Shown piece by piece: positions 8,260 to 23,640 of a stretch of 64,000 bases of DNA. Each line of letters starts with the position of its first letter. The stretch's first letter is position 1. The DNA is from Phycisphaera sp. (GTDB taxonomy: Bacteria > Planctomycetota > Phycisphaerae > Phycisphaerales > Zrk34): assembly GCA_016125285.1 (NCBI GenBank), contig WGMA01000006.1:1-64000 (forward strand). The letters run 5' to 3'. Below the pieces are notes generated by a model that saw nothing but the letters and a program-made list of their open reading frames with translations, did not search any database and was not told the origin of the DNA. The position numbers and the translations under genes were made by a program.

Positions 8260-11200
8260 TTACTGTGAGAGCGGATGGGCGGCTTTGAGCGTTCGCGCCG
8301 GCTTGCCGGACTCATCGAACACGTAAGCCGGTGATCCGTTCCAGTCCACGGCGTCTGGAGTCAGCGCCATGTCGAACGCCTTGAGAAAGCGGTTGTACCA
8401 GACGCTCATCGGATCGGCGGTGATCTCATCGCGCATCGCCCACGCGGGCAGACCGATGACGACGCCGGCGCCGGCCTCGACGTCCTGCTGGAGCTGCGCG
8501 ATCTGCTGGTCGTTGGGCCTGGGCGAGGTCTGGTACGTATCGAAAAGAACCACCTCGCCTGGCTGAACGCGCTGCCCCGGTGTCCACGTCTGCACGTCGT
8601 ATTCGCGTGCGATATCGGGCAGGTCGTCGATCTTGTGCTGCTCGGTGCGTGTGCTGCCGAGGTAGACGCGGCCGCCGGGCTTCACGCCCATCCAGCGCAG
8701 GATGCCGCGCGTGAACGCGTCGTCGGCGAGGTGGAGTTTGTGCGTGCCCATCGCCAGCGCCTTGCCCTTGCCGCTCTGCGCGACGGCCATCAGGGGTTTG
8801 CTGCCGTCCTGCGATAGCGAGAACAGCGGCCTGCAGCGCGGACCCGACGGCTTGACGGTCGAGATCGGCAGGGCCTTGAGCTTCAGCGCGTTGAAGTCGA
8901 TCTCCGCGAAGTCGACGCCGTCGAAGATCGTCGACGCGTCGGCGTTAGCGTCGCGTGCGGGCTCGACGATCGACGAGTTCGTCCCCTTGCGCACCAGGCG
9001 GAACATCCACAGGTCGCGCTTGCCGAGGCCGCCGTGGCGGTTCGAGGCGAGCACCATCACGCGCCCCTGCGCCGCCAGATTCACGTTGCCGATGGCGCCG
9101 TTGTCGGCGCCCCGGAACAGCGCGTCGACCGGAACATGGGCGGTCCACGGCCCCGTGGAGGTCTCGCGGGCGTCAACCGTGATGCCGCGGATCAGCAGGC
9201 CGACCACGCGGATCCGTTCGTCGTCGGCGATCCACTGCGTGATGTTGGTGGTGCGGCGCGGGCCCGACTCGAGGATCTTCGTGTCGCCGAACGGCTTGTC
9301 GCGCGACGGCCGGGTCGACACGCGGAAGTCGATCTTGCCTTGCTGCGCCTCGTCGTGTGTGTGCCACAGGGTCAGGCCGTCGGCCGACAGTTGGAGCGGG
9401 TGGTTGTACAGCGGACCGTTCACCGCGTCGCTGAGCGGCGTCGGCTCGGACCACAGGTCGGTGGGACTCTGCCGTGAAGCCAGCCAGAGCTTGTTGTTGC
9501 GGCAGAACACCAGGTCCCGGCGGTCGGCGGACATCACGGCGTCGGTCTCGTGCTGATCGGAGTTGATCGGCGGACCGATGTTCTGCGCGGCGCCGAACGG
9601 CTCGTCGAGAGACCGGCGCGTGCTGATCAGGATCTCGCCGGCGTTGCCGGTGCTCTTTTCGCCGCGGCTGAACAGCAGCGTCAGGCCGTCCGAAGTGACG
9701 AAGGGGCTGCGTTCGTCCTCGGCGGTGTTGACGCCCGCCCCGAGGTTCTCGACGGCGGACCACTCCCAGTCGTTTGACGTCAGCAGTTGGATCGGAGCGA
9801 GCGCCGGCGCGGGCGCCGGCGTGGCGACCGGCGGCGCCGCCGGCGCGAGACGCTGGCTCATCCACAGATCGTCGTCGCCGTGACCACCGGGCCGATCAGA
9901 TTCGAAGATCAGCGTGCGCCCGTCGGCGGAGAGCGTCGGGCCCTTGTCGTCATGGGCCGTGTTGAGGAATTGCAGGGCGGCGGGCTCACCCCACGGGGCG
10001 CTGACCGAGGCGCGGTGTGACGCGTAGACGTCCCACCGGCCGCCTCCGCCGGGCCGGATCGACTTGAACAGCAGCGTCAGGCCATCCGCTGTCAGCATCG
10101 GCGCGCCCTCGGGGGCGTCGGTGTTGACAGCGTCGCCGAGCTTGACCGGCTTGCCCCAGGGCGCGTCGGTGGTGGGCCGACTCGATTGCCACAGGTCGCC
10201 GCGCTTGTTTGGATCGAGGTGGTCAGCCTGGAAAAACAGCGTCAGCCCGTCGCGCGAGATGCTGGGCTCGGCCTCGTTGTCGGACGTGTTGATTGCCGAA
10301 AGGTTGACCGCCGCGCCCCACGGCGCATCGGTCGACTTGCGTGTGCACATGTACAGGTCGGTCCCATTGGTTCCGGCGTTGCGGTACGACGAGAAGTAGA
10401 GCGTCAGGCCGTCCGCGCTGACGCTGGGGGCGAGGTCGGCGCCGCCTGAGTTCACTCTGGGGCCGACGTTCACGGGCGTCGTCCACGGCGCATCGACCGA
10501 CGTGCGGGTCGACGTCCACAAGTCGCTCGCGCCGCTCCCGCCGGGACGCTTCGAGTGGAAGTAGAGCGTGAGCCCGTCGGCGGAGAGGGACGCGCCGCCA
10601 TCGGCTTCCTTCGAGTTGATCACGGGGCCGAGGTTGACGGGCTCGGTCCAGCCGGAGATGTCGAAGGGCGCCTGGATCGGCGCGGGCGCTGCGACGATCG
10701 GCGCGGGGAGCACCGGCTGGGAGTCGAGTTCCATGACGATTCGGAAGCCGAGGCCATAGTTGGCGTAGTCCGGCCAGTAGGCCATCCGGCGCCCGCAGCC
10801 GAGGTCTGGACTCGCGATGTTGGTGTCGAACCCGCCGCCGGCCACGACGCGGAACTCGCCGCTGTCCGGCCCTTTGGGGTCGACGAGGTTGCCGCCGGGG
10901 CGAACACCTTTGAAGTCCGTCATCCACTCCCACGCGTTGCCCTGCACGTCGTAGACACCCCAGGGGTTGGGCGTCTTGCGACTCACCGCCTGTAGCTTGC
11001 CCTTCGCGTTGTCGTTGACCCAGTCGGTTTCCGGCAGCTGCTTGTGGTCGTTGCCGAACCAGAATCGATTCGTCGACCCGGCGCGGCACGCCAGTTCCCA
11101 CTCGGCCTCGGTCGGCAGCCGATACCGCTTGCCTTCCTTCTGTGACAGCCACTCGCAGTACGCGACCGCGTCCTTGTAGGTCACGTACGTGACCGGGGCG

Positions 11201-13059
11201 TTTGCCGAGATGTCGGGGTCGTTGGGTGGATGGGCCCACCCGACCACAGCGGCGGGCCAGTACTTGCCGTTGGGCGCCTTGGCCTGGCCGAGGAGTTGTT
11301 GCGTCTTGTATTTCGAGTTGACGATGAACTGGCGGAACTGGTTGATCGTGACCTCGGTGACGCCGATGTAGAAGCCGCGCGTCACCGTGACGTTACGCGG
11401 CGTCCACTCGGGGTGACCGGCCATGCCCGTCGGATAGCTCCCCGGCGGGATCAGAACGAGTTTCACATCGCGCTGGCTTTCGATCTGCACCGGCACGCCC
11501 ACGAGCTTCGCGAAGTCCTGCTGGTACGCCTTGGCCTGATCGGCGTCGAACGGCGCCCTGGCGAGGAAGCCCGACGGCGGGGTGGGCGAGGTCGTCGGGG
11601 TCGTCGTGGAGGGCGTCGGCGTGTCCACGGGGATCTGATGCGGATCCTGTCGCGTCCCCGTATGCCCCGGTTGCCGCGTCGGGTCGGGCGCGATGGTCTC
11701 GTCGCCACCTTTAACCGTGGGCGGAGACGGATGGGCATCCTTGGGTGTGCCGCTCGACATGAACATGATCGTCAGCGGCATGACGATGATCGCGACACCC
11801 GCCGCGAGCCCAACCCACAGCGTCATGCCCGACTTCTTGCGCGGCGCGGCGTGTGCCGCGCCGGACGGCGGCTTCGCGTCCACCGACGCCGCGACGTTCG
11901 CCAGATCGGTCAGCGTGCCCGGCTTGGAATCGGATAGATCGCTCTGCGACGGCGGAGGGCCGTCGCTGTCCGTCGGGTCGGGCATCGGCGTGGGCTCGTG
12001 GCGCGCACGCCGCGCGACGGGGATGTTCGCCAGATCGGGCACGGCCGGTTTGCCGCCGCGCTTCACCGTCTCGAGCGCCGCGATGAGATCTTCGCACGTG
12101 TCGTAGCGACCGTCGGGCTCCTTGGCGACCATCTTCCGGAACACGTCGTCGAGTCCCGCCGGCATGTCGTCGGGTAGCGACGGGATCGGCTCCTGCACGT
12201 GCGCCATCATCGTGCCCAGCGGCGTGTCGCGGTAATACGGGTAGCGGTTGGTCAGCAGGCGGAACATCGTGCAGCCGAGGCTGTAGATGTCGCCGCGCTG
12301 ATCGACCGACTTCGCGTCCATGCCCTGCTCGGGCGGCATGTACGCGGCGGTGCCCATCGACGCGTCGGTCTGCGTGAGCGTCTGATACTCGCCGCCGGCC
12401 ATCTCGTGCTCGATCCGCGCCAGGCCCATGTCGAGGATCTTGATCACGCCCTCGTGGTTCAGCAGCAGGTTGCCGGGCTTGATGTCGCGGTGGATCACGC
12501 CGTGCTTGTGCGCGTACGACAGGCCCTGCGCCGCCTGGATGATGTAGTCGATCGTCTGGTCGGGCGTGAACGGCGTGTCGGTCTCGTGCAGGATCGCGCC
12601 GAGGTCCTTGCCGTCGACGCACTCCATCGCCAGGTACAGCAGGTCGTCGGTGTGGCCGGCATCGTAGGCGGTGACGATGTTGGGGTGTAGCAGCTTGCCC
12701 GCGGCGCGCACCTCGCGGAGGAACCGCTGCATCGCCTGATCGTCGTCGGCGATCGACGGCGGCAACACCTTGATCGCCACCTCGCGATGCATCACGCGGT
12801 GACGCGCCCGGTAGACCGCGCCCATGCCGCCCTGGCCGATCTTGTCGATCACGACGTAGTCGCCGATCACCAGCGCCGCCGGGTCACCCTTCGTGAGGAT
12901 CTTCGCCTGGTGAGCGGTCAGCACACCGCGCTCGGCCAGCGTCTGCGTCAATTCCGCCACCGACATGTCCGGCGAGTGCTCTGACGCGATGTCCGCCGCC
13001 GATTTCTCGTCGACGATCCCCAGGCGGGTCATCTCGTTGATCAGATCCAACGGCTGCAT
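8260..13059 (-). CDS. giant membrane Ser/Thr protein kinase with FGE-like and WD40-like propeller regions
   Basis: 1599 residues. A Hanks-type kinase domain covers about 67-330: P-loop GQGGMGAV (75-82), VAIK Lys97, HRDIKPGN (Asp192), DMG in place of DFG (210-212) and MPPEQ in the activation segment, so it should be active. A Pro-rich linker leads to one membrane helix (about 412-435). Outside are an FGE/sulfatase-modifying-factor fold (about 530-780, EAEWELACRAG and GNAWEW) and many PD40 propeller repeats (about 800-1330, for example LSADGLTLYF). A C-terminal domain (about 1380-1599) resembles a GATase-like fold but is not identified. The FGE part keeps one Cys (LGCGRR) but lacks the second catalytic Cys, so it is probably a binding module. 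GGGAG precedes the ATG. It likely senses an extracellular ligand and signals to unknown targets. Confidence 0.88.
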   Translation of the reverse strand: MQPLDLINEMTRLGIVDEKSAADIASEHSPDMSVAELTQTLAERGVLTAHQAKILTKGDPAALVIGDYVVIDKIGQGGMGAVYRARHRVMHREVAIKVLPPSIADDDQAMQRFLREVRAAGKLLHPNIVTAYDAGHTDDLLYLAMECVDGKDLGAILHETDTPFTPDQTIDYIIQAAQGLSYAHKHGVIHRDIKPGNLLLNHEGVIKILDMGLARIEHEMAGGEYQTLTQTDASMGTAAYMPPEQGMDAKSVDQRGDIYSLGCTMFRLLTNRYPYYRDTPLGTMMAHVQEPIPSLPDDMPAGLDDVFRKMVAKEPDGRYDTCEDLIAALETVKRGGKPAVPDLANIPVARRARHEPTPMPDPTDSDGPPPSQSDLSDSKPGTLTDLANVAASVDAKPPSGAAHAAPRKKSGMTLWVGLAAGVAIIVMPLTIMFMSSGTPKDAHPSPPTVKGGDETIAPDPTRQPGHTGTRQDPHQIPVDTPTPSTTTPTTSPTPPSGFLARAPFDADQAKAYQQDFAKLVGVPVQIESQRDVKLVLIPPGSYPTGMAGHPEWTPRNVTVTRGFYIGVTEVTINQFRQFIVNSKYKTQQLLGQAKAPNGKYWPAAVVGWAHPPNDPDISANAPVTYVTYKDAVAYCEWLSQKEGKRYRLPTEAEWELACRAGSTNRFWFGNDHKQLPETDWVNDNAKGKLQAVSRKTPNPWGVYDVQGNAWEWMTDFKGVRPGGNLVDPKGPDSGEFRVVAGGGFDTNIASPDLGCGRRMAYWPDYANYGLGFRIVMELDSQPVLPAPIVAAPAPIQAPFDISGWTEPVNLGPVINSKEADGGASLSADGLTLYFHSKRPGGSGASDLWTSTRTSVDAPWTTPVNVGPRVNSGGADLAPSVSADGLTLYFSSYRNAGTNGTDLYMCTRKSTDAPWGAAVNLSAINTSDNEAEPSISRDGLTLFFQADHLDPNKRGDLWQSSRPTTDAPWGKPVKLGDAVNTDAPEGAPMLTADGLTLLFKSIRPGGGGRWDVYASHRASVSAPWGEPAALQFLNTAHDDKGPTLSADGRTLIFESDRPGGHGDDDLWMSQRLAPAAPPVATPAPAPALAPIQLLTSNDWEWSAVENLGAGVNTAEDERSPFVTSDGLTLLFSRGEKSTGNAGEILISTRRSLDEPFGAAQNIGPPINSDQHETDAVMSADRRDLVFCRNNKLWLASRQSPTDLWSEPTPLSDAVNGPLYNHPLQLSADGLTLWHTHDEAQQGKIDFRVSTRPSRDKPFGDTKILESGPRRTTNITQWIADDERIRVVGLLIRGITVDARETSTGPWTAHVPVDALFRGADNGAIGNVNLAAQGRVMVLASNRHGGLGKRDLWMFRLVRKGTNSSIVEPARDANADASTIFDGVDFAEIDFNALKLKALPISTVKPSGPRCRPLFSLSQDGSKPLMAVAQSGKGKALAMGTHKLHLADDAFTRGILRWMGVKPGGRVYLGSTRTEQHKIDDLPDIAREYDVQTWTPGQRVQPGEVVLFDTYQTSPRPNDQQIAQLQQDVEAGAGVVIGLPAWAMRDEITADPMSVWYNRFLKAFDMALTPDAVDWNGSPAYVFDESGKPARTLKAAHPLSQ

Positions 13060-13458: not shown

Positions 13459-16140
13459 GTGTTGAACTCGCCATCCAACAATCGTTTACGCCTCGTATCG
13501 ATCCTCCGCCGCAGCGCGCGGCGAGTATGGGGTCGCGACCCGTTCGCACGGATCATGCATCGATTGAGCAACGCGGACTCAAGCCCGAATCTGTTTGAAC
13601 AACTCGAACCACGGCTGCTGCTGTCCGCCGATTTCGGCGACGCGCCCTCGCCGTATCCCACGCTCATTACCGAGAACGGCGCCCAGCACACGGTCAGTAG
13701 TCTTACCCTCGGGGCCGCGATCGACATGGAGTCCGACGGCGTGCATTCCGCCAACGCGGACGCCGACGATCTGGCCGACTCCGACGACGAGGACGGCGTG
13801 ACGTTCGGCCCGTTGATGGTCGGCGCGCTCGACGCGACGGTGACCGTCAACGTGCAGGGCGCGACCGCCACCGCCGCCAGCCTGTTGCATTTCGATGGCG
13901 AAGATGGCTCGACCATTTTCACCGACGAGGCCGGCGGCACGTGGACGGCGGCGGGTGGCGCGACGATCAGCACCACCGAGCCGCAGTTCGGCTCCGGCAG
14001 CCTTCGCCCAGGCGGCAGCCCGACTTACATCGAAAACACCGACACCACCGCCCTCGAACTTCCCGTCACCGACCCGTTCACCATCGACTTCTGGGTCAAG
14101 CTGGACGCGTTCGCCGGCGGGCAATACCTCGCCGGCAAGAGCAATCCCGACGCGGGCCGCGGCTTTGACATCCGCGCCAACGGGCAGGTCCTCGAGGTGT
14201 GGGGCGTCAACGGCTGGCTGTCCGGCTATACCTTCCACAGCGGCTCCGTGCTGCAGCTTGACACGTGGCAGCACATCGCCGTCACCGCCGACGCCTCGAA
14301 CGTCTACCTGTTCGTCGACGGGAACCTGGAGTCCACGACAGGCCGGAACATCAACAGTCAGGCGACCGACCGCGGCTTCCGCTTCGGCGCTCAAGCCAAC
14401 TTCGGCGGCGCCGTCTTGAACGGCAACATCGACGAGTTCCGCTTCATCGAGGGGCAGGCCCTGTGGACATCGAGCTTCACGCCGCCCGCCGCGCCGGGCG
14501 TCAATCAGCCCGCGAAGCTCGACGCCTGGATCGACTTCAACGGCGACGGCTCGTGGGGCGGCCCCGGCGAGCAGGTCTTCGACAGCGTCGACCTGGCCAA
14601 CGGCGACAACGTGCTGACGTTCGACGTGCCGAGCTGGGCGAAGGCCGGCACGACCTACGCGCGGTTCCGCCTGAGTTCGGCCGGTGACCTGGCCCCGAAG
14701 GGCGCCGCCGCGGACGGTGAGGTCGAAGACTACGCGGTGACGATCGTCAGCCCGGCCTGGGCGACCGGCGTCTTCGGGCCGCCGAACACGATCAGCGCGA
14801 CCGCGAACGGGGCGTTCAGCGTGTTCGCCGCGGACGTGGACGGCGACGGCGACATGGACGTGCTCAGCGCATCCCAATACGACCAGACGGTCGCCTGGTA
14901 CGAGAACGACGGCGCCCAGAACTTCACGCCCCACGCGATCAGCACGGCGGCCTCGACGGTGCTGAGCGTGTTCGCGGCGGATGTGGACGGCGACGGCGAC
15001 ATGGACGTGCTCAGCGCATCGACCGGCGACGACAGGATCGCGTGGTACGAGAACGATGGCGCCGAGAGCTTCACGGCGCACACGATCAGCGCCTCGGCGG
15101 ACGGGGCGACCAGCGTGTTCGCTGCGGACGTCGATGGCGATGGCGATCTCGATGTGCTCAGCGCCTCGCAGTTCGACGGCAAGATCGCGTGGTACGAGAA
15201 CGACGGCTCAGAAGGCTTTACGGATCACACGATCAGCACGTCGGCCGACTACGCGTTCAGCGTGTTCGCGGCGGACCTGGACGGCGACGGCGACGTCGAC
15301 GTGCTCAGCGCGTCGGTCGCCGATGACAAGATCGCCTGGTACGAAAACGACGGCGCCCAGAACTTCACCGCCCACACGATCAGCACGTCGGCCGATGGCG
15401 CGTTCAGCGTGTTCGCGGCGGACGTCGACGGCGACGGGGACCTGGACGTGCTCAGCGCGTCGCTTCTCGATGACAAGATCGCCTGGTACGAGAACCTCGG
15501 TTTCACGCTCGATATCGACAACAACGGCTCGACTCAGCCGCTGACCGATGGCATCCTGGCCATCCGCTACCTCGCGGGGTTTACCGGCTCGGTGCTGACG
15601 AGCGGCGCCGTTGGCGCCGGGGCGATGCGATCTGACCCCGTTGACATCTTTACGTACCTCGACACGGCGCCCAGAACGGTGCTCGACGTGGACGCGGACG
15701 GCCTGGTGCAGCCGCTGACCGATGGCATCCTGATCATCCGTTATCTCGCGGGCTTCACCGGCACTGTGCTCACGAACGGCGCGACGGGCAGTGGCGCCAC
15801 ACGCACCGACCCCGCCGACATCATCAACTTCCTCGACGCGCTTCAGCCCCCGGCCGGCGCGCCGCCTCTGATGATCGAACAGTCACCTCCGGCGCCGGCG
15901 CCGCTCGTCGCAGACAGCGTGCCTCGGACCGATCCGGCCAAGCCGGTCCGCGCCGTGCCGGACGCAACGGTCGACCTGCTGGCCGCGGCGTCCACGCTGA
16001 TGCGTTCGGAAGGCGCCGGTCTCAAACCCGTGTACCCATCCTTCACGCCGAATCGCAGCGCCCCGGCGACCGTCGACACGATGAACCTGTACAGAAGCAA
16101 CGGCACGCGCAGGGTCACGACCGTGGTGCGTGTCGTCTGA
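13459..16140 (+). CDS. LEPRxLL surface protein: GEVED domain with inserted LamG, FG-GAP/VCBS repeats and dockerin-like repeats
   Basis: 893 residues from a GTG start with AAAGGGGG seven or so bases before it. The N-terminus carries LFEQLEPRLLLSAD (about 48-60), the LEPRxLL motif that marks planctomycete exported giant proteins. DFGDAPSPYPT and DEDGVTF begin a GEVED-type domain. A LamG/concanavalin-like domain (about 142-350) then interrupts it, and the GEVED domain resumes at KLDAWIDFNGDGSW and ends with DGEVEDYAVTI. Five 49-residue FG-GAP/VCBS-like repeats (VDGDGDMDVLSAS...IAWYENDG) follow. Two calcium-loop, dockerin-like segments (DIDNNGSTQPLTDGILAIRY and a near copy) come next. The last 80 residues are Pro/Ala-rich and have no sorting signal I recognise. 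It probably acts as a surface adhesin or carbohydrate-binding protein. Confidence 0.86.
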   Translation: MLNSPSNNRLRLVSILRRSARRVWGRDPFARIMHRLSNADSSPNLFEQLEPRLLLSADFGDAPSPYPTLITENGAQHTVSSLTLGAAIDMESDGVHSANADADDLADSDDEDGVTFGPLMVGALDATVTVNVQGATATAASLLHFDGEDGSTIFTDEAGGTWTAAGGATISTTEPQFGSGSLRPGGSPTYIENTDTTALELPVTDPFTIDFWVKLDAFAGGQYLAGKSNPDAGRGFDIRANGQVLEVWGVNGWLSGYTFHSGSVLQLDTWQHIAVTADASNVYLFVDGNLESTTGRNINSQATDRGFRFGAQANFGGAVLNGNIDEFRFIEGQALWTSSFTPPAAPGVNQPAKLDAWIDFNGDGSWGGPGEQVFDSVDLANGDNVLTFDVPSWAKAGTTYARFRLSSAGDLAPKGAAADGEVEDYAVTIVSPAWATGVFGPPNTISATANGAFSVFAADVDGDGDMDVLSASQYDQTVAWYENDGAQNFTPHAISTAASTVLSVFAADVDGDGDMDVLSASTGDDRIAWYENDGAESFTAHTISASADGATSVFAADVDGDGDLDVLSASQFDGKIAWYENDGSEGFTDHTISTSADYAFSVFAADLDGDGDVDVLSASVADDKIAWYENDGAQNFTAHTISTSADGAFSVFAADVDGDGDLDVLSASLLDDKIAWYENLGFTLDIDNNGSTQPLTDGILAIRYLAGFTGSVLTSGAVGAGAMRSDPVDIFTYLDTAPRTVLDVDADGLVQPLTDGILIIRYLAGFTGTVLTNGATGSGATRTDPADIINFLDALQPPAGAPPLMIEQSPPAPAPLVADSVPRTDPAKPVRAVPDATVDLLAAASTLMRSEGAGLKPVYPSFTPNRSAPATVDTMNLYRSNGTRRVTTVVRVV
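14818..15552 (+). repeat. five tandem 147-nt coding repeats
   Basis: Copies begin at 14818, 14965, 15112, 15259 and 15406, each starting with codons for SVFAADVDGDGD. The period is exactly 147 nt (49 residues) with very high nucleotide identity in the calcium-loop half. The fifth copy is truncated and runs into the dockerin-like segment. The identity suggests recent expansion or gene conversion. Confidence 0.9.
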
Positions 16141-16390: not shown

Positions 16391-17428
16391 ATGGCACAGA
16401 CACGCAGCGCGGGGTGGGCGATGATCAAGGTGTTTTGTCCCAAGTGCGACGTCTGGAAAGAAATCGACGAGTCGTTCCGCAGCGGCATCTTCCGCTGCAG
16501 CGACTGCTCGAGCTTGCTCAGCGTGCCGGAAGACGCCGAGACGGTCGGCGGTGTTGCCGAAGCGGATGAGAGCGACGCCTACGAGATCGACGCGCCGGTG
16601 ATCGATCGCTCCAGCACCCGCTTCGGGCCCTACGCGCAAGGCGACAATCCCGACGAGTTCGTCGGCGGTGGTGACGCGTACGCCGAGGATGCCTACGAAG
16701 ACGAAGGCTACGACGACCGCGGTGGATTCGACATCGACGGCGGCTACGCGCCCGAGCCCGCCGACGACGGCTTTTGCGTCGCCGATCAGCCCGTGGCCGA
16801 CGTGCCGGCTTACGATGAGCCGGCGTACGACGACGGCGGCTTCAACGTTGGCGGCGCGGCCTACGCAGAGGACCGTCACGAAGCGCCGCCGCAGCACGCC
16901 GCGTATCCGCCGCCGGTCGCGCCGCCCGCCGAGGCCCCGACCGGGGCGATCGGCGCCCGGTCGTTCGACGGTTCGTCTTGCACGGTGCTGCTGGTCGAGC
17001 CGGACGCCGCGACCGCCGAGCGCGTCGCCGAGGCGCTGGCCGAGTTCACGTTCACCGAGTTCACCATCGTGCCGGTCGCGACGCTCGAGGAGGCGCAGGT
17101 CACGCTCGAGCAGTACGTCATCGACCTGGTGCTCACGGAGCTGGTCCTGCCCGACGTCCGCGGCATGGACACGGTCAAGGCGCTGATGGCGGCGACGAAG
17201 ACGATCCCGGGCAAGCCGCCGGTCGTTGTGCACTCGAAGTTCAGCGATCAGAAGGGCATGCTCAGCGTGCTGAAGCGCGGCGTGCAGGACTTCATCGTCA
17301 AGGGCTCGATGCCGCTGACGACGCTGCCGAGCGTGCTGCTGCACGCGGTGCAGCGCCAGCGCATGCTGGTGAAGCTGACGCAGCTGGCCGCGGATCAGAT
17401 CGCGCGGGCTCAGCAGCAGGACATCTGA
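16391..17428 (+). CDS. zinc-ribbon protein with a degenerate response-regulator receiver domain
   Basis: 345 residues. An N-terminal zinc ribbon (C16, C19, C36, C39, spacing CX2C-X16-CX2C) is followed by about 150 residues rich in Asp, Glu, Tyr and Pro with YDE/YDD-like repeats. The C-terminal receiver domain (about 196-316) keeps the fold pattern and Lys304 in DFIVKG. The phosphoacceptor Asp is Glu250 (VLTELVLPD), the acidic pair is EPD (203-205), and the Thr switch position is Ser282. It is therefore unlikely to be switched by phosphorylation and may mimic the active state. It carries no output domain. A second start, ATG at 16421 (MIKVFCPK), is equally plausible. The same ribbon spacing is found in three proteins encoded at 19561-23640. 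Confidence 0.82.
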   Translation: MAQTRSAGWAMIKVFCPKCDVWKEIDESFRSGIFRCSDCSSLLSVPEDAETVGGVAEADESDAYEIDAPVIDRSSTRFGPYAQGDNPDEFVGGGDAYAEDAYEDEGYDDRGGFDIDGGYAPEPADDGFCVADQPVADVPAYDEPAYDDGGFNVGGAAYAEDRHEAPPQHAAYPPPVAPPAEAPTGAIGARSFDGSSCTVLLVEPDAATAERVAEALAEFTFTEFTIVPVATLEEAQVTLEQYVIDLVLTELVLPDVRGMDTVKALMAATKTIPGKPPVVVHSKFSDQKGMLSVLKRGVQDFIVKGSMPLTTLPSVLLHAVQRQRMLVKLTQLAADQIARAQQQDI

Positions 17429-19560: not shown

Positions 19561-20226
19561 ATGTCCAACGGTTCAGGGTACGATCGTCGCTACATCGCCG
19601 CCGCGGTGGCCATGGTGCTGGATCACGGTTACAGCTTCAAGGCCGCGGCGGACGAGCTGCAGGTTCCGCCGGCGCTGCTGCACATGTGGGTCGAGGAGTC
19701 GATCGATCGGCTCGCCGACAACGGGCCGACGCACGGCCAAAATCACGGCGGCGAACGCGGCAACGGTCGTGCCCGGGCCGGTGGACGTGGACCCGAGGCG
19801 CACCACAACCGACTCGACATCTACGGCCACGACATCGAACAGGAGCAGCGTGCCGATCACGCGCGCGTGGCCGACGTGTCGCGCAGCCGCGTGCGCAAGC
19901 CCGACGACTCGGAGATGTGGATGGGCTCGCTGGAGCAGGACAGCGTCGAGGCCTCGCCCGTGCCCGCGTCGCGCAACGCCGCACGCCACATCGCCCAACG
20001 CACCCGGCCCGGCGCCGATCAGACGCTCGACGTCAGCGGCGGCATCATCATCAAGTACTGCTGCGAGCACTGCGGCCAGAAGCTCCGCTCCAACGACCAC
20101 CTGTTCGGCAAGGTGCTCGAGTGCCCGGGCTGCGGGTACAACACCTCGGCGCCGACGCACGCGCGCGACCCGCGCGTGTACATGTTCGTCCATCAGCCCT
20201 CCGGCGACCTGACGCTCGCCGATTGA
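19561..20226 (+). CDS. HTH/zinc-ribbon protein, paralog 1 of 3
   Basis: 221 residues; GGAGGAGGAGA precedes the ATG. Residues about 7-48 form a helix-turn-helix of the transposase OrfA/HTH_Tnp_1 type (AVAMVLDHGYSFKAAADELQVPPALLHMWVEE). A low-complexity polar linker follows (HGQNHGGERGNGRARAGGRG and acidic stretches). The C-terminus has a zinc ribbon with C168, C171, C188 and C191 (CX2C-X16-CX2C) in CEHCGQKLRS and CPGC, then the shared DPRVYMF tail. No catalytic transposase domain is present. Two more copies of this architecture follow at 21435 and 22384. It is probably a DNA-binding protein with a protein- or nucleic-acid-binding ribbon; its targets are unknown. Confidence 0.82.
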   Translation: MSNGSGYDRRYIAAAVAMVLDHGYSFKAAADELQVPPALLHMWVEESIDRLADNGPTHGQNHGGERGNGRARAGGRGPEAHHNRLDIYGHDIEQEQRADHARVADVSRSRVRKPDDSEMWMGSLEQDSVEASPVPASRNAARHIAQRTRPGADQTLDVSGGIIIKYCCEHCGQKLRSNDHLFGKVLECPGCGYNTSAPTHARDPRVYMFVHQPSGDLTLAD

Positions 20227-20364
20227 TCAACACGCCCATACCCCTCGCCGACCGACGGGTGCACACGCCCGGTGCACGCCCGTCGTGTCGGCGCGCGCAG
20301 AGCGCGGCGCGGGCGTGGCGGACACGTCGTCGCCGCGTCCCTTGCGGTATGCTGTGACGTCACA

Positions 20365-20485
20365 ACCCTCTCCCTTGAAGGTAAGAGGGCAGGGTGAGGG
20401 TGAGTCGCGGGACACGGTGGCGATTGCATCGTACGCAGGCTCATCCCCCTCACCCGGCCTCTCCCCCACTTGGGGGAGAGGGGTT
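20365..20485. repeat. MITE-like imperfect inverted repeat
   Basis: A left arm (20365-20403) beginning ACCCTCTCCCTTGAAGG and a right arm (20442-20485) ending GGGGGAGAGGGGTT pair imperfectly over roughly 36 bp across a 38-bp centre. Each arm also contains its own CCCTC/GAGGG hairpin. It looks like a mobile palindromic repeat with no coding capacity, set between paralog 1 and the next gene. The rest of the 300-bp spacer (20227-20526) shows nothing else. Confidence 0.7.
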
Positions 20486-20526
20486 GAAACCGCACGCAAG
20501 CCGCACATCCAACAGGGGCCGCCACC

Positions 20527-21303
20527 ATGACCAGCCACACGACCGTTGAACAGAGACTCGATCGCCTGGAGCGGACTAACCGCCGGTGGCGCGCCGCGTG
20601 CCTCGTTACGGGGCTCGCGCTGCTGTGCGTCGTGGCGGTGGGGCAGGCGCCGAAGAAGCCCAAGGCGCTGCCGGCGCAGAAGATCGACGGCCGGCTGGTC
20701 GTCGACGAACTGGTCGTGCAGGAAGACGGCAAGGACCGCATCATGCTCATCGCACGCGACGGCAACACGCTCGTGGCGCAGATGAACGACAAGGGCGAGC
20801 CGGTGCTGATCTGCGGGACGAACAAGGAGTCCGGCCCGTTCGTGTCGATGCGCGACAGCCACGGCAAGCCGCGCCTCACCACCACGGTCACCGACGAAGG
20901 CACCGGCGTGTCGCACCTCGACGCGCAGGGGCGCACGCGGATCACGACGTCGACGATCGACGGCGGCACGGCGTACACGTCGTGGCACGACGCGGCGGGG
21001 CAGTCGCGCGTGACGGGCGCGGCCAGCGAGACGCAGGGCGTGCTCAACGTCGCCGACGAACGCGGCACACCGCGCATCATGATCACGTCCAGCGGCGCCG
21101 GCGGCAGCGTCGCCCTGCAGGACGGCAACGGACGCGTCCGTCTCGCCGAGTCGGTCGAGAACAACCAGGTGCTCGGCCTGCTTTACGACGAGCTCGGCCG
21201 GCAGCGTGTGAAGACCGTGCAGATCGGCGTGGGTGACGCCACGACGTACTACATGCAGCCGGACAACAAGGGCGGCTCGACGCTGCTGCGCAAGCTGCCG
21301 TGA
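20527..21303 (+). CDS. membrane-anchored beta-repeat protein of unknown function
   Basis: 258 residues. A short coiled-coil-like cytosolic segment (TVEQRLDRLERTNRRWR) precedes one membrane helix (about 24-42). The external part is a series of about 20-residue beta repeats with a D-x-x-G-x-x-R pattern (DGKDRIMLIA, DSHGKPRLTTT, DAQGRTRITTS, DERGTPRIMIT, DGNGRVRLAES, DELGRQRVKTV). This suggests a beta-solenoid or stacked-hairpin rod. It lies between paralogs 1 and 2 of the HTH/zinc-ribbon family, but nothing else links it to them. No catalytic motif is seen. Confidence 0.7.
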   Translation: MTSHTTVEQRLDRLERTNRRWRAACLVTGLALLCVVAVGQAPKKPKALPAQKIDGRLVVDELVVQEDGKDRIMLIARDGNTLVAQMNDKGEPVLICGTNKESGPFVSMRDSHGKPRLTTTVTDEGTGVSHLDAQGRTRITTSTIDGGTAYTSWHDAAGQSRVTGAASETQGVLNVADERGTPRIMITSSGAGGSVALQDGNGRVRLAESVENNQVLGLLYDELGRQRVKTVQIGVGDATTYYMQPDNKGGSTLLRKLP

Positions 21304-21434
21304 CGGCGAAACCCCGCGATTCCCACCGCGTATCGGGGCGACCCTTAATCGCGATTCAGACCGACACCTGTGTCGCCCGCCACGCATCGCGTGCAACAAT
21401 AGAGCCAAGAAGACTGACCGGTGAGGAGCCCGTT

Positions 21435-22106
21435 ATGTCCACACAATCGACTTATCCGTCCGCGGTGCGTGAGCAGGCCGTATCCAAGGTGCTCGACGCG
21501 GGTATGACGTTCGCCGAGGCGGCCGCGGAGATGGACGTGCCCAAGGCCCTGTTGCACCACTGGGTCGAAGAGGTGATCGACGAGATGGCTCGCGGTGAAA
21601 AGGCTCACGGCGACAAGGCGCACGCCTCGACGCCGCCGATGGCGACGCCCAAGACGCGAGCCGCGCGGTCGTCGCGGTCGGACGACGAGGACGACGACTA
21701 CAAGCTTGTCGATGACGCCGGACCGCCCGACGGCTCGGCCTCGGACACGGTTCATGTCGAGTCACACGCCCCGCACGCCGCGCCGCATCCGCACGGCGGG
21801 GGGCTCGACGAGACGTCCGAACTGAGCCTCGACGATATAGGCGCCGGCTGGGACGACGTGGACGTCGAGCCGCCGCACGTCTTGGACGATGCCGCACCGC
21901 CGCCGCACCGCAAGCCGCCCGAGAACGCCGTGGTCAAGTTCCGCTGTGAACACTGCGGGCGGAAGCTCAAGACGGACGGTCATCACATGGGCCGTCAGAT
22001 CACCTGCGTCAGCTGTAACGAACACGTCATCGCGCCGGCGGACGCGAGCGACCCGCGCGTCTACTTTTATCAGACCGACCCGCCACGCCTTACACCGCGC
22101 GCCTGA
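21435..22106 (+). CDS. HTH/zinc-ribbon protein, paralog 2 of 3
   Basis: 223 residues. GAGGAG lies 6 nt before the ATG at 21435, so the longer frame from 21300 is rejected. The HTH (about 8-47: EQAVSKVLDAGMTFAEAAAE, MDVPKALLHHWVEEV) is the closest of the three to the transposase HTH_Tnp_1 pattern. The middle 110 residues are acidic and His/Pro-rich (DDEDDDYKLVDD). The zinc ribbon has C171, C174, C191 and C194 with the same CX2C-X16-CX2C spacing, CEHCGRKLKT, and the DPRVYFY tail. The conservation of both ends and divergence of the linker suggest that the two ends carry the function. Confidence 0.83.
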   Translation: MSTQSTYPSAVREQAVSKVLDAGMTFAEAAAEMDVPKALLHHWVEEVIDEMARGEKAHGDKAHASTPPMATPKTRAARSSRSDDEDDDYKLVDDAGPPDGSASDTVHVESHAPHAAPHPHGGGLDETSELSLDDIGAGWDDVDVEPPHVLDDAAPPPHRKPPENAVVKFRCEHCGRKLKTDGHHMGRQITCVSCNEHVIAPADASDPRVYFYQTDPPRLTPRA

Positions 22107-22383
22107 AACGCCGCCCGTCCGCCCCGGGGCCGGATGTGGCCAAACGACGTCTCGTGAACCGCCGCGCCGCACGGCGACGCGCTCCGGTGAAACCCCCGTT
22201 TTCGCGTGAGTATGGCGTTCCGACGCGCCTGAACGGGATTCAGTGCCTATACTGCGGTGTCTCCGTCGCCCGGGCTGTGTCACCTCAAGTCGACGGAGTG
22301 TGGTGCCGGATGTTGGCGACATCACGTTGCGGGTGCATGCCGGGAAGTCGTAAATGCCAGTCGTTACAGGCAGGATGTGAATC
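22107..22383 (+). other. intergenic region upstream of paralog 3
   Basis: 277 bp without a supported gene. A TATACT at 22248-22253 could be a -10 element with an expected leader of about 120 nt, but no good -35 is present. No repeat or RNA gene was recognised. Confidence 0.4.
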
Positions 22384-23640
22384 ATGTCAGTTCAGCCAGC
22401 GATCGATCCGCGCGTGCGCGCGTCGGCTGTGGACCGAGTCCTGAAGCAGGGCGAGGCGATCGATACCGTCGCACTCGACGTCGAAGTGCCGGTCGAGACC
22501 CTCGAGCGTTGGGTTCAGGAGGAAGTCGACGTCCTCGAAGCGAACCTCCGCAAGGTGCGTGAGGCGTTGTCGCACGGGGCGAAGGCGGAGGCGAGGGGCG
22601 ACACGAAGGCCGAGCGTCCGCTGCGTGGCAACGAGCGACCGTGGAGCGTCGACGCCAGCGACGCCAGCGACGACACGCATGCCGCCGCGCCGGGCGATGA
22701 GCCGTCGGTTGACGTCGAGCCCATCGACGCCGCGGACGACGCGACCCCCGCGCAGCCCGCCGCCACGACCGCCGCCACGACCGATCCCCTCGAAGCCATG
22801 CGTCGCCAGGTCGTCGAGGCGATCAACTGCCCCAACGCCGTGCTCTGCGTCACCACCCCCGACCAGATCCACGCCACCTTCGCCGCCGTGCGATCCGAGG
22901 CCCACGTCGCCGGCGTGATCTTCGTGGTCGACCCCACGCTGCCCGCCGACGCGGACGCCGACCACATGGGGCCCAACGACTCGGCCCAGGAAGTCGACGC
23001 CGTCGGCTCCGTCGACGCCGTCGACCCCAAGGCCCCGGCGGCTGCGCCGTTCAGCGCCTCGCTGCATCGCGGCGCCATGCCGGTCATGCCCGGTCAGTCG
23101 CACGTCAACGGCTCGGCGCGGCGCGCGCACCCGTACCCCCAGCCCAAGCCCGTCACCGAACCGTCCAACGGCAAGTCCAAGTCGAAGAAATCCAACGGCA
23201 ACGCCCGGCCCGAGGACCCCACGCACCTCGACCTCTACATGCCCGACGAAGACGAGCAGCCCATCGACGAGCGCGTCGACAGCGGCGTCTACCCCATGGA
23301 GGAGGGCGTCGACGAGAACGACCGCGTCGTGATCAACGAGAAGGTCGTGCTGATCGACTTCGGCGACGAGCCCGACGACACCGCGGCGAGGCACGCCGAC
23401 AATGACGACGACGCGGAGTTGCCCGGTGTCGTCGTCGACGAATCGCTCACGCTCAAGTTCAAGTGCGAATACTGCGGCCGTAAGCTCAAGGCCAAGGGCG
23501 AAACGCTCGGCCAGCACGTCCGCTGCAAGGGCTGCGACGAGAAGATCCGCGCCCCCAAGCACTGGTCCGACCCGCGCGTCTACTACTCCAGTCGCGCCGG
23601 AGACCCCAACGCCGACTCCTCCGGAGGCTCGACCCTCTGA
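22384..23640 (+). CDS. HTH/zinc-ribbon protein, paralog 3 of 3 (long linker)
   Basis: 418 residues. The N-terminal HTH is recognisable but the most diverged (ASAVDRVLKQGEAIDTVALD then VEVPVETLERWVQEEVD). The linker is about 300 residues, strongly acidic, with Asp/Ala/Pro repeats (SDASDDTHAA), a Ser/Lys patch (KSKSKKSNGN) and one possibly folded piece around residues 138-180 (RRQVVEAINCPNAVLCVTTP). The C-terminal zinc ribbon (C361, C364, C381, C384) reads CEYCGRKLKA and KGCDEKIRAP and is followed by SDPRVYY. It has the identical CX2C-X16-CX2C spacing of the other two. Function unknown; DNA binding is inferred from the HTH. Confidence 0.82.
   Translation: MSVQPAIDPRVRASAVDRVLKQGEAIDTVALDVEVPVETLERWVQEEVDVLEANLRKVREALSHGAKAEARGDTKAERPLRGNERPWSVDASDASDDTHAAAPGDEPSVDVEPIDAADDATPAQPAATTAATTDPLEAMRRQVVEAINCPNAVLCVTTPDQIHATFAAVRSEAHVAGVIFVVDPTLPADADADHMGPNDSAQEVDAVGSVDAVDPKAPAAAPFSASLHRGAMPVMPGQSHVNGSARRAHPYPQPKPVTEPSNGKSKSKKSNGNARPEDPTHLDLYMPDEDEQPIDERVDSGVYPMEEGVDENDRVVINEKVVLIDFGDEPDDTAARHADNDDDAELPGVVVDESLTLKFKCEYCGRKLKAKGETLGQHVRCKGCDEKIRAPKHWSDPRVYYSSRAGDPNADSSGGSTL

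Follow-up and report, generated by a model that had tools for sequence, protein, structure and literature searches.

An OrfA-derived helix-turn-helix domain with acidic charge, joined to a zinc ribbon with a predicted extra strand: a possible local family of adapter proteins in Phycisphaera sp.

The window, meaning the whole stretch of 64,000 nucleotides that was analyzed (contig WGMA01000006.1, positions 1 to 64,000), encodes on its forward strand a cluster of three paralogous proteins, P1, P2 and P3, each with a helix-turn-helix (HTH) domain resembling that of IS3-family OrfA proteins at the N-terminus, a linker predicted to be disordered, and a zinc ribbon carrying the motif DPRVY near the C-terminus. 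P1 (221 amino acids, 19561 to 20226) has its HTH in residues 1-54 (19561 to 19722), a neutral linker, and its ribbon with the DPRVY strand at 20053 to 20196. In P2 (223 amino acids, 21435 to 22106), the HTH spans 21435 to 21596 and the ribbon with its strand 21936 to 22079, with an acidic linker between them. P3 (418 amino acids, 22384 to 23640) begins with an HTH at 22384 to 22545 whose third helix is long, continues through an acidic linker of 286 residues, and carries its ribbon and DPRVY strand at 23455 to 23598. GC content by codon position is coding-like in all three genes (GC3 of 0.83-0.90), and good Shine-Dalgarno sequences precede the ATG starts of P1 and P2. BLASTP comparison of every pair returned two separate conserved blocks, the HTH and the ribbon, with an unalignable linker between; block E values ran from 8e-8 to 2e-16, with the weakest, for the HTH block of P2 and P3, at 3e-5. 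The paralogs are deeply diverged, yet identity at both ends is 37-50%, and this shared two-ended plan is far beyond chance.

The preliminary description spoke of three tandem proteins. Three paralogs there are, but the arrangement is clustered rather than strictly tandem, with an additional open reading frame and a repeat element between P1 and P2. The additional frame (20527 to 21303, forward strand) encodes a 258-residue protein that has a hydrophobic N-terminal segment and a beta-repeat-like sequence, and for which curated libraries returned no family match. The repeat, at 20355-20500 between P1 and that frame, is a REP-like palindromic element with the pair ccctctccc...gggagaggg; searching the genome with it gave 43 matches with E <0.001, of which some are full-length at 70-76% and most cover the right palindrome only. 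Four Y1_Tnp (RAYT-type) matches occur in the genome and could mobilize such an element.

Consensus scanning of the cluster region found neither a sigma-70-like promoter nor a terminator, and the three upstream regions share no 16-mer that scores better than shuffled sequences, as a common operator might. A phage, plasmid or defence origin was considered, and is unsupported by searches of IMG/VR, plasmid and defence libraries. Five sister genera have a counterpart of a neighboring amidohydrolase at 62-65% identity, with no other tested gene near it, although three of the five sister loci are on short contigs and this synteny therefore says nothing about insertion. Several other genes of the window were noted. 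The protein encoded at 16391-17428, upstream of the cluster, starts with a zinc ribbon and ends with a receiver domain, the two being separated by a long acidic linker; it is one more case of a ribbon joined through a linker to a signalling domain. A protein encoded at 13459-16140 has a LEPR-XLL domain above the curated cut-off and, by eye, FG-GAP-like repeats; this protein and the named relatives of the P1-P3 ribbon point to a planctomycete genome. On the reverse strand, 8260-13059 encodes a 1599-residue protein with a Ser/Thr kinase domain, a formylglycine-generating-enzyme-like region and WD-like repeats, these last two assigned from the types of match.

Structure predictions agree with the sequence comparisons in giving two ordered end domains and a disordered middle. 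A folded domain was suspected within the P3 linker at residues 135-170, where the model is of low confidence, and was rejected. An acidic linker, as first described, is found in P2 (net charge -16) and P3 (-34) but not in P1 (-1); similarly, the very different linker lengths reported at first sight hold for P3, at about 286 residues, but not for P1 against P2, at about 105 residues each.

The HTH had been likened to the IS3-type OrfA (HTH_Tnp_1) pattern, and profile searches bear this out. Against PF01527, with a cut-off of 24.1 bits, P2 scores 31.1 and is the only one to pass, with P1 at 20.4 and P3 at 16.8; since P1 and P3 are nonetheless clear paralogs of P2, we assign the HTH of all three to the family. 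When a profile built from the three HTHs was searched against the class and relative samples, the best matches outside this genome were OrfA-like ORFs from two genomes of the same order (genus g35). Downstream of one of these ORFs lies an OrfB that carries rve and HTH_21 (in the OrfB of locus L085, rve scores 88 bits), which makes the nearest outside relative a genuine OrfA with a DDE OrfB behind it. P2 aligns with this OrfA from residue 1 without gaps, at 41% identity over 44 residues. Its HTH is predicted as a three-helix bundle with pLDDT >90, for which Foldseek placed TnpE of Shigella (an NMR structure) second; no match reached an E value below 0.001, as small domains set in a long disordered chain give weak statistics. 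Descent of the P1-P3 HTH from the IS3 OrfA type may be regarded as established on sequence homology. No transposase catalytic domain was found by scans of P1-P3 or the scanned neighbors with curated domain libraries, as the preliminary description had also held, and HTH_Tnp_1 is otherwise almost missing from this genome, with just two further matches, short or at a contig edge.

Two details of the HTH have counterparts in characterized IS3 elements. The conserved tryptophan of the recognition helix, W42 in IS911 and W49 in IS2, is retained as W43 in P1-P3; in IS911 and IS2, it is not simply a DNA contact (PMC3219604). In P3, helix 3 extends to about residue 71 with a heptad-like series, V48-L51-L55-V58-L62, as read from the sequence. 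OrfA-type proteins of IS3 elements oligomerize beside the HTH, through a helix that has been described for IS2 (PMC3219604), and the resemblance of the P3 pattern to that helix makes self-association of P3 plausible by analogy.

The HTH departs from its OrfA relatives in charge. Across the 48 aligned positions, P1-P3 carry net charges of -3, -6 and -7, against 0 to +6 for a set of 29 phylum OrfA-type HTHs, in which one row was mis-extracted (L105, which enters the mean and leaves the range unaffected). This yardstick belongs mostly to another subgroup, of WR/WK type, with three close relatives of WV type; the OrfAs closest to P1-P3 carry +3 or +4. The recognition helix alone has a net charge of -2 in P1, -3 in P2 and -5 in P3, where planctomycete OrfAs range from 0 to +4. 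The C-terminal 18 residues of 29 sigma region-4 HTHs, which served as a control from within the genome, range from -1 to +5, with a mean of +2.8; other proteins of the window are only mildly acidic on the whole. Sigma-70 region 4_2 has 74 matches in this genome, whose complement of ECF-type sigma factors is thus very large.

Positional comparison with 25 OrfAs, a count that leaves out the mis-extracted L105 and L119, locates the differences. The second residue after the tryptophan is Lys or Arg in 17 of 25 OrfAs and Glu, Glu and Gln in P1-P3, while the fourth residue before it is Thr in 22 of 25 and Leu, Leu and Thr in P1-P3. The sixth residue after it is Asp in all three paralogs. E46 and D49 are the only invariant charged residues of the P1-P3 HTH, and a Glu three residues after the tryptophan, as at E46, is found in some OrfAs too. 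P1 still has basic residues at R9/R10 and K27. Judged by charge, a basic recognition helix suited to terminal inverted repeats appears to be absent from P1-P3. Certain HTHs bind DNA despite having few basic residues. Even so, because the P1-P3 HTH is acidic where those of OrfAs and of the same genome are basic, an ordinary DNA-reading head seems less likely, and the original description of a DNA-binding family is to that extent weakened.

At the other end of the proteins, the four cysteines, the CX2C-X16-CX2C spacing and DPRVY are unchanged in all three paralogs, exactly as first reported. The cysteines stand in ribbon geometry, from which zinc binding is putative. The spacing says little by itself, as it was kept in 21 of 21 aligned ribbons drawn from several proteins and genomes. 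A ribbon profile returned 18 matches at E below 0.002 within the same genome and more in 27 of 60 relatives, and elsewhere the same ribbon is N-terminal, or stands alongside receiver and other domains, in many unrelated proteins. By sequence the ribbon is thus a module common in the phylum, and its spacing is no distinguishing feature. P1-P3 show the features by which planctomycete ribbons are informally recognized (CX2C-X16-CX2C, a basic-aromatic pair before it, and a Pro after it), while all three score below the cut-offs of curated zinc-ribbon families, MJ0042-type and others. The set of 21 ribbons matched many families in curated libraries weakly (LysW-like, MJ0042, DZR, Zn_ribbon_4) and none exactly.

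It is the DPRVY tail, unlike the ribbon spacing, that is distinctive. The model of P2 has four ribbon strands followed by a fifth at residues 209-213, overlapping DPRVY (206-210), with pLDDT of about 90, while in the single-sequence model of P3 the fifth strand shrinks to one residue at low confidence. By the P2 model, then, the tail would belong to the ribbon fold, contributing to a fifth beta-strand. The nearest other ribbons in the genome belong to two proteins encoded by adjacent genes on contig C86 (L082, 9123-10463 and 10544-11890), both with a receiver domain, MshEN and two ribbons, the last of which has [HN]PRVV where DPRVY stands. Because these nearest ribbons lie in the same genome, the ribbon with its strand has probably been shuffled within it. 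The ribbon ends of P1-P3 are neutral to basic (net 0, +3 and +5) and could bind protein or nucleic acid; nucleic-acid binding is frequent among type-2 ribbons (PMC5906684).

Searches for the fusion elsewhere drew on genome samples that are subsets, with relatives all from outside this genus. The ribbon with its DPRVY tail was not found in any other of 392 phylum genomes, and no fusion of the P1-P3 type was found in 397 class genomes searched by HTH or in eight genomes of the same family. No second fusion appeared in GTDB contigs, IMG/VR, plasmids or samples of the order; the GTDB contig scan used two exact degenerate peptides, and its three matches were ordinary ribbon proteins. The preliminary description had looked for its support to a fused family conserved in Phycisphaerae or Planctomycetota, and here it fails, as among the samples searched the fusion occurs only in this genome. 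Its view of a local expansion is upheld by the three paralogs clustered in one genome, and no described family matches the fusion, in keeping with its remark that no function has been described. A literature search returned no paper on a bacterial OrfA-type HTH that was domesticated along with a zinc ribbon. On the searches made here, the HTH-ribbon family is a lineage-specific orphan.

The combination of genuine OrfA homology, a flip to acidic charge, conserved ends with a diverged linker, and two ordered domains supports a tentative reading, to which we give somewhat less than an even chance: P1-P3 are lineage-specific two-headed adapters, with a co-opted OrfA head for protein contacts, a disordered linker, and a ribbon. 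The head would have kept its fold and lost its basic DNA-reading face, and would mainly contact protein, whether by associating with itself or by capturing a basic partner. The ribbon would dock on a target common to the paralogs, and the linkers would set reach and charge, differing from one paralog to the next. Such proteins would act as tethering or regulatory adapters; they would not be transposases and probably not classical repressors. Against this it may be said that charge is no proof of lost DNA binding, and that the conservation seen in these sequences is conservation among paralogs alone. The fuller proposition, in which a transposase-derived HTH turned acidic protein-interaction head and a strand-extended ribbon make up a local adapter family with no known counterpart, is likewise offered tentatively, as a reasonable possibility.

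A domesticated, OrfA-derived transcription regulator, in which the HTH has kept its DNA-reading role and the ribbon binds RNA polymerase, nucleic acid or a signalling partner, is close to what the preliminary description proposed; it is a strong rival, only a little less probable than the adapter. The HTH_Tnp_1 homology and the retention of W43 fit such a protein, as does the occurrence of this ribbon class on response-regulator proteins, both in the window (P0005) and elsewhere in this genome. The recognition helix, however, is acidic in every paralog, the tryptophan in IS911 and IS2 is more than a simple DNA contact (PMC3219604), and the upstream regions lack a shared site. That P1-P3 might instead be a recent orphan fusion, under little or no selection for function and drifting since duplication, is improbable: the fusion is indeed known from one genome only, but the ends remain 37-50% identical, with every cysteine and DPRVY unchanged, whereas the linker has diverged, a pattern that suggests selection on the ends rather than drift. 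Least probable, and decidedly unlikely, is a transposition-interfering factor whose OrfA-like head, itself not binding DNA, pairs with an OrfA or transposase already present in the cell. Although the HTH is of OrfA ancestry and OrfA-type proteins of IS3 oligomerize next to it (PMC3219604), the genome offers almost no other HTH_Tnp_1, the OrfA zipper is missing apart from the short heptad-like helix of P3, and no defence library is matched.

Co-option of transposase DNA-binding domains is familiar in eukaryotes. If the acidic flip of P1-P3 is functional, it would be a compact case of an HTH switching from DNA to protein recognition, and it cautions that a match to HTH_Tnp_1 is by itself no proof of DNA binding. 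Like the N-terminal domain of IS3-family OrfA (PF01527; IS911 and IS2 OrfA), P1-P3 have a three-helix H+HTH core and a tryptophan in the recognition helix. They differ in having neither an OrfA-type leucine zipper nor an adjoining OrfB/DDE partner among the neighbors scanned, in a recognition helix that is acidic rather than basic, and in the zinc ribbon fused on. With the ribbons common in the phylum, for which the nearest models are TIGR02098 (MJ0042_CXXC), PF21344 (LysW-like), PF13717 (Zn_ribbon_4) and PF12773 (DZR), they share the pattern [KR]F-x-C-x2-C-x16-C-x2-C-x6-P, including its X16 spacing, and they are set apart by the C-terminal placement of the ribbon and the extra predicted fifth strand. 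The contig C86 proteins resemble P1-P3 in having [HN]PRVV at the place of DPRVY, but carry a response-regulator receiver and MshEN instead of the HTH. Each half of P1-P3 belongs to a known superfamily, and the novelty, which is one of variation, lies in how the halves are combined and in the acidic head.
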